Positions 4,986 to 25,785 of a stretch of 41,776 nucleotides of DNA are shown in pieces. Source of the DNA: an uncultured bacterium (lineage in GTDB: Bacteria; Patescibacteriota; Gracilibacteria; Absconditabacterales; Absconditicoccaceae); contig CAMVNG010000009.1 of the NCBI GenBank assembly GCA_947168815.1, positions 1 through 41,776 of the forward strand, in the 5' to 3' direction. Numbering within the stretch: position 1 is the first letter of the stretch; each line of letters starts with the position of its first letter. The notes under the pieces were generated by a model. The model saw only the letters and a program-made list of their open reading frames with translations. It was not told the DNA's origin and did not search any database. The translations under genes were made by a program, and so were the position numbers.

Positions 4986-5684
4986 TTATAATGGATTTTG
5001 TTTTTCAAAAATTTTGTATTGTAAATATCATTGAACTTCGTTTACAATCTTTGTTTTCATAAATGCTTTTTGCTTCTCTGAAATTAAATCTCAAAGCTCT
5101 GCTAAAATGGTATTTGGAGTATAATGCTTTGGTAATTCAGCATAAATATGTTTATAAAATTCAATAGCTTTCATTTTTGTTCTTTCTTCTATAACATCTT
5201 CATTGATAGGAAAGTTTTCAGAGAAAAAATAATATACATCGAAGAGATCTCTATTTTTTAATCTTTCACTTAATGCAACGAGCTTGTTGGCAAAGATACT
5301 AGATTTCTCCATTGCAATAATAGGTTTTCAGAAAAAGTTTATTGTTTCATAATGTGTATTCTTATATATTTTTTTGCTTATTTCTATTTTGATATTATGC
5401 TCTCATTCTCAGTAATTTATAAGAAAGAAGTAGGTAAATTGTTTATCCTTTTTATCCTTAATTGTTATTCCATTAACCGAAAGAAGAAGAGATTCCATTT
5501 CTTCCATTAAATTTGGATATTCTTTAATACAATCAAAATCTAAATCTGTTGAAAATCTAGGTAGCTGATAAAGAAAGTAGCATAGGGTTCATCACTTGAA
5601 TGCTAAATAATCTTTAAGATTTGAGTGAAGTATACAATTAAGTAATTGAAACATAACCGTTCTATGTTTATTCTGATTGAGCAT
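4986..5684 (-). CDS. abiEii: AbiEii-type nucleotidyltransferase toxin
   Basis: The 232-residue product carries the AbiEii/AbiGii nucleotidyltransferase signature KGGTLCYFLYQLPRFSTDLD near residues 26-45, with the GG motif and the D-x-D metal-binding pair, followed by the family block PIIAMEKSSIFANKLVALSE and RDLFDVYYFF. In characterised type IV toxin-antitoxin systems such as streptococcal AbiE, this protein is a toxic nucleotidyltransferase and its partner AbiEi represses the operon. It is the second gene of the pair: its ATG at 5684 lies inside the last codons of the upstream gene, a 17-nt overlap that suggests translational coupling. One glycine of the GGT motif is TGA. The toxic activity is inferred from the family. 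Confidence 0.85.
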
Positions 5685-6237
5685 ATTTGATGAGATTTGA
5701 AAGAAGTAAATTTGTTTTTTTGGGATAGATACAAGATATTTCTTCTAATCTTTTTAAGTCAAGGTTAGAAATATTATCAAAGTTCGTATTTTTATATAGA
5801 TAAACCATGTCGCATATAGCCCTTTCTGGACATGCTTCATAGTATTTTCAATTATAGTTGAGTCCAACTGGATTTGTTAGAATTGATGTCTTAATCTTAT
5901 GATATTCTATGCTAATACCATCTATTTCTTTTTTTAAACTGTTTGATGCAGCTAATGTTATAGTGTGTTGATAATTCTGAAAAATAATTCACGATTTTTG
6001 TAAAACAGATTCAAAAGAGATATATGATGGATATCTTATTTTAGAAGCTAATTCCCATTCATTATAATTATTAAGACATCGAAGTCTTTTAGCGACATTT
6101 TTAACTAAAGAGTTTTTTTTCATAACTTGCATAATGTTATTTATGTGTGAAGAATTTTGTATTCCAAAAAGAGTTTTTAGTTCATCAGTAGTAAAAACTG
6201 TCATATTTGAAGATATTAATCTCGGAAAATACTTCAT
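5668..6237 (-). CDS. abiEi: AbiEi-type antitoxin and transcriptional regulator
   Basis: The 189-residue protein has an N-terminal winged-helix-like segment (FTTDELKTLFGIQNSSHINN, about residues 15-34) and then the AbiEi C-terminal pattern: RYPSYISFESVL, VGLNYNGKYYEACPERAICD and DLKRLEEISCIY. Known AbiEi proteins neutralise AbiEii and bind inverted repeats in their own promoter. An imperfect inverted repeat spans 6238-6279 immediately upstream, consistent with autorepression. The start at 6237 is preceded by CAGGTGACGA, one of the few Shine-Dalgarno-like sequences in the window. It overlaps abiEii by 17 nt. The pair uses TGA for glycine like the rest of the genome, so it is adapted to code 25. 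Confidence 0.8.
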
Positions 6238-6285
6238 TCGTCACCTGTTATATATAATAAACAATATATATGAGATGACAAAATT
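6238..6285 (-). promoter_or_regulatory. abiE promoter with imperfect inverted repeat
   Basis: The region between the antitoxin start and its upstream neighbour holds GTCACCTGTTATATATAA and, inverted about 8 nt further on, CAATATATATGAGATGAC. Thirteen of 18 positions match when the two arms are aligned. A -35-like TTGTCA and a TATTAT -10 about 17 nt apart lie inside the repeat on the minus strand. AbiEi proteins are known to bind such repeats; that it does so here is inference. Confidence 0.45.
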
Positions 6286-6299
6286 ATAACTAAAAATAA

Positions 6300-6839
6300 T
6301 TATTTTTCAAGAAAATAAAAAAATCTTCCTGCTCATTTAGCAGGAAGATATTCAATCTCTTCAGCATCAGCGAATTCGCAATCGGTTTCATCATAATCGA
6401 TGTTATGATCGTTGTTGTCCTCACTACTCCATCCAGGACACATTTTTGTATCTTTCCAGAGCATAATAATTAAAGCACTCATAAATGTACAAATTGTATT
6501 GACGGCGATTCCCATAAACCATCCGTATAAAGGATGGGAAATCAAAGCCAAATCGTTTACAAAGAACCAATAACAAGTTAAGCAGCCACAAACAAGTACT
6601 GTTAGTGTGAAAATGCCTGCAAAGATGCATACTGTTAAAAAAAGAATTGTGTAACAATGGTTATTGACGCCAATTGCACTACAACGTTTTGATCCATGAA
6701 AGAGAATCAGAAAGTTAAGTACTCCAGAGAATAAAAACCAAGACAACACAATAAGGGAGTTGACGACCATGCCGCCAATAATTGCCGAGAGTATACAAGT
6801 TATCAGCAAAACACCCCAAACAAGAATTTCTCTACTCAT
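6300..6839 (-). CDS. Cysteine-rich four-helix membrane protein, foreign codon usage
   Basis: I do not recognise the family. The protein has about four hydrophobic helices (roughly residues 5-27, 29-49, 62-90 and 104-128), at least seven cysteines in the membrane half, and an acidic tail (EDNNDHNIDYDETD). None of its 11 glycines is TGA; they are GGC, GGA or GGT, with GGC rare in neighbouring genes. The frame meets a TGA at 6335-6333, after 168 residues, in the loop of a terminator hairpin. Under the standard code that TGA is the stop. Under code 25 the protein gains 12 residues and ends at the TAA at 6302-6300, beyond the hairpin. The whole picture fits a gene acquired from a standard-code organism. 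The coordinates given include the code-25 extension. Confidence 0.7.
6314..6349 (-). terminator. Intrinsic terminator overlapping the gene end
   Basis: ATCTTCCTGCT (6323-6333) pairs perfectly with AGCAGGAAGAT (6339-6349) around a 5-nt loop. On the minus strand it is followed by seven T, an A and four more T. The in-frame TGA at 6335-6333 sits in the loop. Confidence 0.85.
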
Positions 6840-6941: not shown

Positions 6942-8177
6942 CTAAAAAAGACAATTTTTTTCGGTAATAACTTCTTCAACCAAGCTTCAAGAAGTGTATT
7001 CTCAATCAAGTGAAAGTTGAATATAATTTTCTGTCCATCATTTAGATTTTCAATGTCTAACTTCTTCTATTAATACCTGAGCTTTTCTTCAATAATTTTT
7101 TTCAATAAAGGCATCGCGTACTTCATCTCAAATAGAAATAAGTGTTCTATTTCTTTGTTTTCTAATTTCTTGTGGAATCTGGTTAGGTAATGATGATGCA
7201 GGTATTCTTTCAGCAATGTGATGATCAGAAAAAGGGAAAGCATGTAATTTAGTAATTTGATATTTTTTAACTCCTTCACAAGTAATTTCAAAATCTTTCT
7301 CTGTTTCTCATGCAAATCAAGAAATAATATCAGCTCAAATTGAAATGAATTCTTTATCAGGACGATTTAAATTTCTGATATTATTAAGGACATAATCTAA
7401 TTTTTTACTATCATAAGCTCTATTCATATTTTTCAAAACGGTATCTGAAAAACTCTGAATAGAAAAATGAAAATGAGGACAAAATCTTTGATTGCTTAAA
7501 ATTTCAAAAAATTCATCATTGAGATATTGTGGGTCTACACTAGAAATTCTAATTCTTGGTATGTTGGTCTCTTTTATAATAGCTTTTAATAAATGATTGA
7601 ATTGAGATTTTTCAGAATGTCTTGTATCATCCGTTCACCATGCAGCAAGATTAATTCCTGTTAAGACAATTTCTTTTCCTCACATACATTCTATTTGATG
7701 AATCTCTTCAATAATTTCATCTAATGGACGATTCCTATGAGGTCATCTTTTAAAAATTGTTAAACAAAAAGAGCAGTGATTATCGCATCAATTTTGTATA
7801 ATGACATAATTCTTTGTCCATAATTTCTGTCATGGCATTTTAAAAGAAAATCAAAGCTCAGAAGACTCTAATGGATCTTCAGCAAGAAGAGTTATTTGCT
7901 CTTTATATTCTTTTAAATCAGGATAATAGGAATAGAAATCTTCAATTGGAGTAGCCTTTCATCCGGTAATAGATCAACATCAAGCAATAAGAATATGTTT
8001 TCCTTCTTTAGCTTTTTCTATAACTTCTTTTACCCATTTCATTTTTGCTCTATCTGTAACAACACAAGTAGCAACAAGAAAATCATTATCTCATAGTTGA
8101 TTATGTTCAGTGAGATAAGCAATCCATTTATTTAAATAGAATTTATTTACTTTACATCAATAAACTCTGTATTCCAT
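6942..8177 (-). CDS. mtaB: tRNA t6A37 methylthiotransferase MtaB
   Basis: A radical-SAM methylthiotransferase of 411 residues that is expected to convert t6A to ms2t6A at position 37 of ANN-decoding tRNAs. N-terminal MTTase cysteines are visible in YGCKVNKF, VATCVVTDRA and LIAGCG. The radical-SAM triad is CDNHCSFC, followed by VLTGINLAAWG and the helix PHFHFSIQSFSDTVLKNMNR. GCKVN and LTGIN favour MtaB over MiaB, which usually has GCQMN. The segment after the radical-SAM triad, LTIFKRGPHRNRP, departs from the usual VPFARG-type sequence. Several conserved glycines are TGA. It is transcribed away from the DUF3160 gene, with 136 nt between their starts. Confidence 0.87.
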
Positions 8178-23698: not shown

Positions 23699-23730
23699 CC
23701 AAGATGCTTCAATTTATTAAAAATGTGCTC

Positions 23731-25785
23731 ATGTGAAAATTTAAAGATTTTTTAAAAAAATTAGGAAATTATATTTGGAGAAAAAAACGGACGCTACTTG
23801 TGTCATTATCCATTCTTTGAATGGTTTGAATATGGGGATATAATAAATATTTTAAACCAGCAGAAGATACATCGTTTTTTAGTAATGACTATGAAGTAAT
23901 CACGTGAGATGTCTCAAATTCTTTAAACTTAATATGAACAACTCAGTTTGCTAATGCTCAAAAATTAACTTTTGTAAATAAAGGAAGAGTAACAAGCGTG
24001 AAAACGAAGGTTGGTGCGACTGTAAAAAAATGAGATATTTTGGCTACTATTACAACAGATGATCTTGATAGAAAAGTTGAAGATAAAAAGAAGGAAATAA
24101 AAAACCTTCAATTAAAACTAAATACTATTTTGTCTAAATCTGATAAAAATCTTGATATATTAAGAGCACAATCAAATTATGATTTATTGATTTTACAAAA
24201 AGAAACACAACCAAGTGAGCAAATACTCGATATACAAACAAAAAAATCAAATATTCAAGACATTGAAAGGCAAATAAAAGATAAAGAAAAAGACTTAAGA
24301 GAAGCAAAAAATGATTATGCAGAACTGTTGTCTTGAAGAGCTTGAGCAACTCATGCAGAACTTACAATATGAAGTAGGGTAAGAAACAGAAATACGACAA
24401 TTGAAAAATTGATAAGGGATTTCCGTACAAGTGCAGTAGAAATCCAAACAACACTTGATGAATACGATAAGGTGATGAAAATGACGGATCTCCATAATTG
24501 AGAAAATGAAAATGTATATATTTGAGCAAAAAATCAACGTCTTGTAAGCGAATCAAAGCAAAACTTTCGGAAAGTTAATGCATATACAGAAAAGCTTAAT
24601 ACACTATATAATAATTTTTCTGCTAAACAAATTGGTCAAATAACAGAAAATGAACTCCTAGATGCATATGCTGTATTTAAGAATCTATGAGATGATTTAG
24701 TTCAACGATGAAGAATAAATTATGATATGTTTCAGGATAGTATTGAATCGGTGGGAACTTTGGAGAGAAGCCAAATTGATTGATATACAAAAACGTTCGG
24801 AACTTCGCTAGAATCTCAATGATATAGTTATTATGATAAATATAATAGTGCTGTAGAAAGTTTAGCAAATTTAAAAGATTCAGATACCACAATAGAAGAT
24901 GCAGCAGATAAGGTAGAAAAGTTATCAATCGAACTAGATACCTTAAAAATAAATCTTCAAAAAGCAAATAATGAATTAACTATAGCAGAAAAACAACATG
25001 TCCTAGATGCAGCTGAATTAGATAAAAAAATTACGGATGCAAAAGTTGATTTAGAAAAAGCAAAGCAATGAAATGCGCAACAAGAAGAAATAGATACATA
25101 TAAAAACGAAATAGATAATGCGCAATTTGCTCTTACTACACTTATGAAAGAGTATGATGATTATAAAATCATTGCTAACTTTGACGGTGTAGTGACAAAA
25201 CTTGATATGCAGATTTGAGATAGTATTGAAACAAATTCAAATTCATCAAGCGATCAAAAATATATTTATGTAGAAACGCCCGATTTATTGGAAGTGAATT
25301 TGGATATTGACCAAATTGATATTGTAAAAATTTCGACTTGAATGCCAGTTGAAGTCTATCTGGATGCATTTCCAGAAAATACTTATACTTGAGTTTTCTC
25401 TGAAATAGATACTATGCCTGATAGCAGTTCTGATATGTGATGATGAAATTATAAGGCAAAAGTTGTATTCCAAAAGAATAGTCCTGAAGAAAGAATTCTT
25501 TGAGGAATGAGCGCTAACATTAAAGTAGTATTGAATGAAGAAAAAGATGCATTAGTAATTCCAAATCCAGCAATTGTCGACAATGAAATATGAGAAAAGA
25601 TTGTTCTTTTCCAAGATAAAAATGGAGAATGGATAGATAAAGTTATTGAAATCTGATTATCTGATGACGTAAATACGGTCGTTTTGAGTGGATTGAAGGC
25701 ATGAGATATAATTAAAGGTTTATATATAACTGATTCTGCAATAACAAATGCTTGAATTGTGGATGATGAAGATTCTTTCTGGTAA
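23731..25785 (+). CDS. MacA/HlyD-type membrane fusion protein of an ABC exporter
   Basis: The 684-residue protein has an N-terminal membrane helix (about 22-38), then a biotinyl-lipoyl-like half domain (KLTFVNKGRVTSVKTKVGAT, KKGDILATI), a long coiled-coil hairpin rich in Lys/Glu/Asp (about 90-460), the second lipoyl half (YKIIANFDGVVTKLDMQIGD) and a beta-barrel part with VNLDIDQIDIVKISTGMPVE, ending in a MacA-like C-terminal domain. MacA is about 370 residues, so the coiled coil here is much longer. It opens a three-gene cluster with an ABC ATPase and a MacB-type permease. The exported substrate is unknown. An in-frame ATG at 23704 would add nine residues; promoter spacing favours 23731. Confidence 0.85.

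Follow-up and report, generated by a model that had tools for sequence, protein, structure and literature searches.

In the Absconditabacteria (SR1), UGA codes for glycine, and CGA and CGG code for tryptophan (Shulgina and Eddy 2021, PMC8629427). On the minus strand of a 41,776-nucleotide contig from a lineage assigned to this group by its code (hereafter the window, the whole stretch of DNA that was analysed), a gene of 168 codons runs without TGA until its frame meets this triplet in a terminator hairpin, where a stop codon of the standard code would be at home. How does such a gene come to stand in a genome that reads UGA as an amino acid, and under which code was it shaped? The window is contig 9 of the genome G000, of which nearly all (18 contigs, 1.29 Mb, 1151 ORFs) was joined for codon counts, and is compared below with G002, a congener of which ~60% was examined.

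The gene at 6839–6336

The genome has prfA, but the RF2 gene prfB is absent, and a tRNA with the anticodon UCA is present. UGA should therefore be decoded as glycine here, and the host should read through the TGA of the gene, as originally predicted. Also supported is the other part of that prediction, namely that a code with UGA as a stop shaped the gene. In the standard-code reading, the coding sequence extends on the minus strand from the ATG at 6839–6837 to position 6336 (168 residues) and is followed by the in-frame TGA at 6335–6333, a stop in the standard code and glycine in the host cell. Read-through in code 25 would add the sequence GAGRFFYFLEK (6335–6300, including the TAA at 6302–6300), that is, 11 residues and not the 12 first counted. 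The TGA lies within an intrinsic terminator hairpin (6349–6323; 11-bp stem, 5-nt loop) followed by a T-run, TTTTTTATTT, with the T and G of the triplet in the loop and its A in the stem. The hairpin has a z-score of −4.84, none of 200 shuffled sequences being as stable, and the terminator whose loop the frame enters with this TGA is thus a strong one, as first described.

The ATG is preceded by an A-rich leader (AAAACAAAAAAACAAATAC...ATT, 6869–6840) that is common to the class of genes described below. Upstream of the leader, an inverted repeat followed by a T-run (6919–6885), read by eye and missed by the terminator scan, is probably the terminator of the upstream native gene (6942–8177). Directly downstream, on the same strand, are two native code-25 genes (together 4986–6243), one in the AbiEi position with no Pfam match above threshold (6243–5668) and one for an AbiEii-type nucleotidyltransferase (5684–4986; Pfam PF08843, E = 3.2e-21). 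A code-25 gene for an AAA_14/DUF4143 ATPase is located at 1238–2476. The surrounding genes of the window are of cellular type and written in code 25, and no phage hallmark genes were seen around the 6839–6336 gene.

The 11 glycine codons of the gene body comprise one GGT, five GGC, five GGA and no TGA. Genome-wide, the fractions of TGA and GGC among glycine codons are 0.574 and 0.011, and simple binomials by hand with these frequencies give P ~8e-5 for 0/11 TGA and P ~7e-8 for at least 5/11 GGC. The large share of TGA expected of a native gene is thus missing (0/11 against 57% for the genome), and the observation that GGC is frequent in the gene and rare around it holds for the genome as a whole (5/11 against 1.1%). 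The non-glycine codons also favour a foreign codon model, with a log-likelihood ratio of +11.7, so that the codon-usage comparison proposed with the original prediction marks the gene as foreign in composition, as would be expected of horizontal acquisition. CGA and CGG are absent from the gene itself. The encoded protein is predicted to have four transmembrane helices (low-confidence model, pLDDT 57) and carries the conserved motifs K-C, NN, SH..WF and TKxCPxW..ED..DYDE.

Among 99 relatives, the only convincing homologue of the 168-residue protein is found in G002, at 26% identity; it shares the K-C, NN, SH..WF, TKxCPxW..ED and DYDE motifs together with a nearby C. Three weaker matches (L003–L005) look like chance and were set aside. 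The body of the G002 homologue is without TGA, and its first TGA follows DYDEC, just ahead of its own terminator and near the point where the 6839–6336 gene stops. The only convincing code-25 homologue (n = 1) therefore has neither TGA at glycine positions nor a conserved extension, the residues beyond the two TGA codons being unrelated. Next to it is a code-25 membrane-fusion gene; the window's counterpart of that gene (23704–25785) sits elsewhere, and the flanks of the 6839–6336 gene do not lie together in the examined ~60% of G002. Direct searches of GTDB contigs, viral contigs, phages and plasmids with the 168-residue protein gave no match, nor did a profile search of 395 Bacteroidota genomes. 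In these non-exhaustive searches the gene is neither nested among donor sequences nor matched by a near-identical donor, and PhoH, another member of the class, is not nested either. The notion of a recent acquisition is thus not supported in that form, since a diverged standard-code homologue is present in the sister species, members of the class occur across the family and the searches turned up no donor.

A class of standard-code cassettes

The gene is not the lone island that it was first taken to be, and is one of about 75 similar genes in the genome. A two-component codon model, followed by a filter that kept ORFs free of TGA up to their last stretch, selected 84 candidates with foreign codon use; this list is inflated by ORFs antisense to tRNA genes (e.g., C1:456682, C4:1655 and C9:41552), and we therefore estimate the number of standard-code cassettes at ~75. 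The examined ~60% of the congener contains 60 candidates.

A cassette consists of a single gene with a TGA-free body, preceded by an A-rich leader and a T at position −1, and usually followed by a terminator right after TAA, TAG or TGA. The leader peaks at −11 to −14 and extends to −21, and T is found at −1 in 79% of cassettes (G000 and G002 pooled). The hexamer AACAAA occurs at most 40 nt upstream in 56% of cassettes versus 7% of native genes, and a terminator directly follows the standard stop in 69/84 candidates versus 220/788 native genes. The promoter and terminator patterns used are crude: a sigma-70-like promoter is visible in many cassettes, the crude promoter pattern itself barely discriminating (33% of cassettes versus 30% of native genes with free upstream space), and for the 6839–6336 gene we claim no good promoter. 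Cassettes use the codons GGC, CCC, CGC and CTG. The 84 candidates stop at TAA (48), TAG (16) or TGA (20), and in 14 of the 20 that stop at TGA the hairpin starts inside the code-25 extension, a count that omits the 6839–6336 gene, in which the hairpin starts ahead of the TGA and runs across it.

Integron-type gene cassettes have an integrase and a common recombination site at their ends. By eye, no shared repeat or insertion site was seen at the ends of the present cassettes, and the shared intergenic repeats seen in one cassette array resemble promoters or terminators. A code-25 prophage on contig 13 of G000 (L071, 7220–10427), with capsid, protease and portal-like genes rich in TGA, carries on the opposite strand an array of some seven short genes that lack TGA and have intergenic repeats in common. 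On contig 38 of G002 (L124, 1732–4311), an 815-residue cassette with repeated SPFH-like segments has 60 glycine codons, none of them TGA, ahead of its standard stop.

The meaning of CGA and CGG

A code conflict is present at CGA and CGG as well, beyond what the original prediction could see. In native orthologue pairs of G000 and G002, CGA aligns to Trp in 74% (n = 392) and CGG in 73% (n = 81), whereas in cassette pairs CGA aligns to Arg in 60% (n = 20) and CGG in 67% (n = 9), with Trp absent from the residues listed. For PhoH of the family, the columns with CGA or CGG average 41% Arg and 0% Trp in standard-code relatives. The tRNA with anticodon UCG is nearer to tRNA-Trp (66%) than to tRNA-Arg (51–58%), the CCG tRNA being less clear. 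The meaning of the two codons was measured in the window's genus and is taken from the literature for the remaining family. CGA and CGG thus stand for Trp in native genes and for Arg in cassettes, from which it follows that the code under which the cassettes evolved was the standard one at three codons; the native genes of the genome follow the Absconditabacteria code (PMC8629427), and the cassettes deviate from it at all three. The cell would therefore insert Trp for Arg in many cassettes.

These codons also bear on whether the gene is a native one with a codon bias, for example through high expression that avoids TGA. The genes for EF-Tu, a PEP-synthase-like protein and ribosomal proteins do avoid TGA here; they use no GGC, however, and fit the native codons, whereas the cassettes use GGC, CCC, CGC and CTG, as well as CGA and CGG as Arg. 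We rejected this explanation, to which we assign hardly any probability, because the cassette codons are foreign and CGA and CGG are read as Arg.

Recurrence in the family

Absence of TGA was itself among the criteria for the candidate list, and tests free of TGA-based choice were therefore run. Genes picked by AAACAAA before the ATG alone have a two-peaked TGA fraction (45 genes at zero, 2 at 0–0.3 and 39 higher), and no gradual build-up of TGA is seen among them. A search of 99 genomes matched PhoH in 17, each a member of this code-25 family and none with TGA inside the match; the distribution is patchy (17 of 48 family genomes, counting those searched). At 12 loci in 12 genomes, PhoH has 0 TGA among 324 glycine codons, next to neighbours with 26–71% TGA. 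ThyA has 0 TGA among 128 glycine codons in seven family genomes, the ThyA genes of G000 and of G002 both ending at TGA, and thymidine kinase (TdK) has 0 among 60 in four genomes of two genera. More distant matches within the family do contain TGA, both for ThyA and for TdK (7/13 glycine codons in G009, 3/15 in G026). Together, PhoH, ThyA and TdK of several code-25 genera have no TGA in ~510 glycine codons; at three loci (L146, L159 and L335), genes of this kind contain 0 of 14–27 TGA and lie between genes with ~50–100% of glycines encoded by TGA. Two genera, g19 and g14 (L149, L150 and L152), use less TGA for glycine than the window's genus, and the depth of recoding therefore varies within the family.

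An assembly or binning artefact, in which foreign fragments were joined into the contigs, could draw on the contamination estimate of 1.36% for G000. Against it, single cassettes are embedded between code-25 genes in contigs of up to 470 kb, independent assemblies of several genera contain them, and PhoH is also present in a one-contig genome (G027). This explanation was likewise rejected, its probability being negligible.

Origin of the cassettes

We lean, with a confidence somewhat better than even, towards repeated uptake of whole-unit cassettes, selected in standard-code cells, from a standard-code and perhaps Bacteroidota-like pool. The cassette positions differ between G000 and G002, a site in G002 is empty for one cassette (C5:36392), and 59 of the 84 candidates have no relative in the ~60% of G002 examined; these observations argue for turnover. 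The synonymous divergence of several cassettes is 0.79–0.85, compared with a 90th percentile of 0.74 for native genes, which differ from them in codon bias. Cassettes are mixed with native genes in a region shared at 59–98% between contig 15 of G000 (L073) and contigs 52 and 10 of G002; one cassette pair there is 98% identical, and exchange or recent common ancestry is likely at this region.

Several cassette lipoproteins have Ser-Cys lipoboxes of a kind known from Bacteroidota. In addition, the adenine block of the cassettes (−11 to −14) matches the pattern of Bacteroidetes, for which a block at −14 to −11 is characteristic (PMC6847099). These two features make it reasonable to guess at a Bacteroidota-like donor or partner, but they do not go beyond a guess.

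The cassettes are single-gene units dispersed among the native genes, each with a leader, an ORF and a terminator, and many with a promoter that can be recognised; their glycine codons, stops and Arg codons point to selection in standard-code cells. Under repeated uptake, the lineage would acquire such units whole, time and again, from a standard-code gene pool, which may consist of Bacteroidota-like partner or prey cells or of mobile elements of such cells, and the units would insert into intergenic sites. In the window, reading of UGA as glycine would give the 168-residue protein its 11 additional residues, and the ribosome would traverse the terminator hairpin, such that termination before the AbiE genes would probably be weakened; other cassettes would additionally receive Trp for Arg. 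The code conflict, the architecture, the class and its recurrence in G002 and in further genera are direct observations; the uptake route, the donor and whether the product is functional in this cell are inferred.

Three findings sit less easily with uptake. No near donor was found for any cassette tested: PhoH identities outside the family are at most 46–47% among the matches listed, those of TdK are at most 58%, the nearest viral proteins are 48% (TdK) and 42% (PhoH) identical, and a viral scan with one PhoH sequence gave no match. In the PhoH tree, the family is grouped mostly by genus and is not nested among the sampled bacteria, a single family clade is not rejected (p-AU 0.50), and PhoH identities rank like those of the native prfA; the grouping by genus, non-nesting and prfA-like ranking fit vertical retention better than repeated uptake. 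Finally, the build-up of TGA is not gradual. Three 'phage' records matching TdK and ThyA (H13, H14 and H11) were rejected as donors, as they look like cellular fragments. Two 'Bacteriophage sp.' records from faecal samples (L330 and L331; MT835673 and MT835490) also resemble fragments of cellular chromosomes, with ORFs that are gyrase-, radical-SAM- and regulator-like by eye.

There is a more tentative explanation, in which the cassettes are inherited and kept standard-coded for expression in a standard-code partner, their DNA or mRNA passing during an attached or predatory phase; TGA, and CGA and CGG as Trp, would then be selected against. This would account for the same families being TGA-free across several genera, for the PhoH tree and ranking, for the two-peaked TGA use without intermediates, and for a cassette initiation region unlike that of native genes. 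It is also in keeping with a dN/dS of ~0.06–0.12 for TdK within the genus, where synonymous Arg swaps use CGA. No delivery route is known, however, and neither the lack of positional conservation between congeners, nor the synonymous divergence of several cassettes above that of most native genes, nor the patchy distribution of PhoH is expected under inheritance. Compared with uptake, expression in a partner does better on recurrence and on the absent build-up of TGA, and worse on positional turnover. We thus regard it as possible, if rather unlikely, that a recoded and probably host-attached lineage keeps dozens of autonomous genes in its partner's code, with a partner-type initiation region, for expression by that partner.

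Relation to known systems

Liu et al. (2023, PMC10746230) predicted code-11-compatible phages among those of Gracilibacteria and Absconditabacteria, and these show that avoidance of TGA can serve two codes. As in those phages, TGA-free genes are here tied to code-25 bacteria, with possible traffic with standard-code hosts. The cassettes might then be chromosomal leftovers of such phages, infecting both recoded and standard-code hosts: genes for PhoH, ThyA and TdK are frequent in phages, the contig 13 array is part of a prophage region, and the 6839–6336 gene has no in-frame TGA in its body. Those phages, however, are entire genomes in which TGA is mostly avoided as a stop (PMC10746230), whereas the cassettes are single chromosomal genes that use TGA stops and CGA and CGG as Arg, so that they do not suit both codes at once. 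Moreover, the annotated cassettes have no phage hallmarks, most of those tested have no PHROG match, the prophage around the contig 13 array is itself in code 25, and the nearest viral TdK and PhoH are as distant as given above. We consider a phage origin improbable.

Phage morons are cargo genes, carried singly, each of which brings its own promoter and terminator. The cassettes resemble them in being single genes with their own expression signals and terminator and an odd composition, and the contig 13 array does lie within a prophage; unlike morons, most cassettes, the 6839–6336 gene included, lie outside phage regions and are written in another code. In Vampirococcus, an absconditabacterium, 126 horizontally acquired genes have been reported, together with ComEC and type IV pili, probably for uptake of host DNA (PMC8080830). 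Both cases involve foreign genes within a host-dependent recoded genome; that report describes no class keeping the standard code, whereas the cassettes have one architecture and the same families recur across genera. Searches of a collection of open-access papers found no report of a chromosomal standard-code class.

Implications

When genes are predicted with a single code, many cassettes are given wrong ends or wrong residues. Peptides offer a test of both uptake and expression in a partner, because Arg or Trp at CGA and CGG, and the C-terminal end of TGA-stopped proteins, reveal which ribosome made the product. It has been proposed that recoding cuts a lineage off from gene exchange (discussed in PMC8080830). 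The lineage described here has three recoded codons and carries ~75 standard-code genes, some of whose families recur in several genera. Either the recoding barrier is crossed constantly, with foreign genes persisting although they are read wrongly, or a different reader is the one that the genes are written for; in the latter case, one chromosome would hold two genetic codes, with a separate reader for each.
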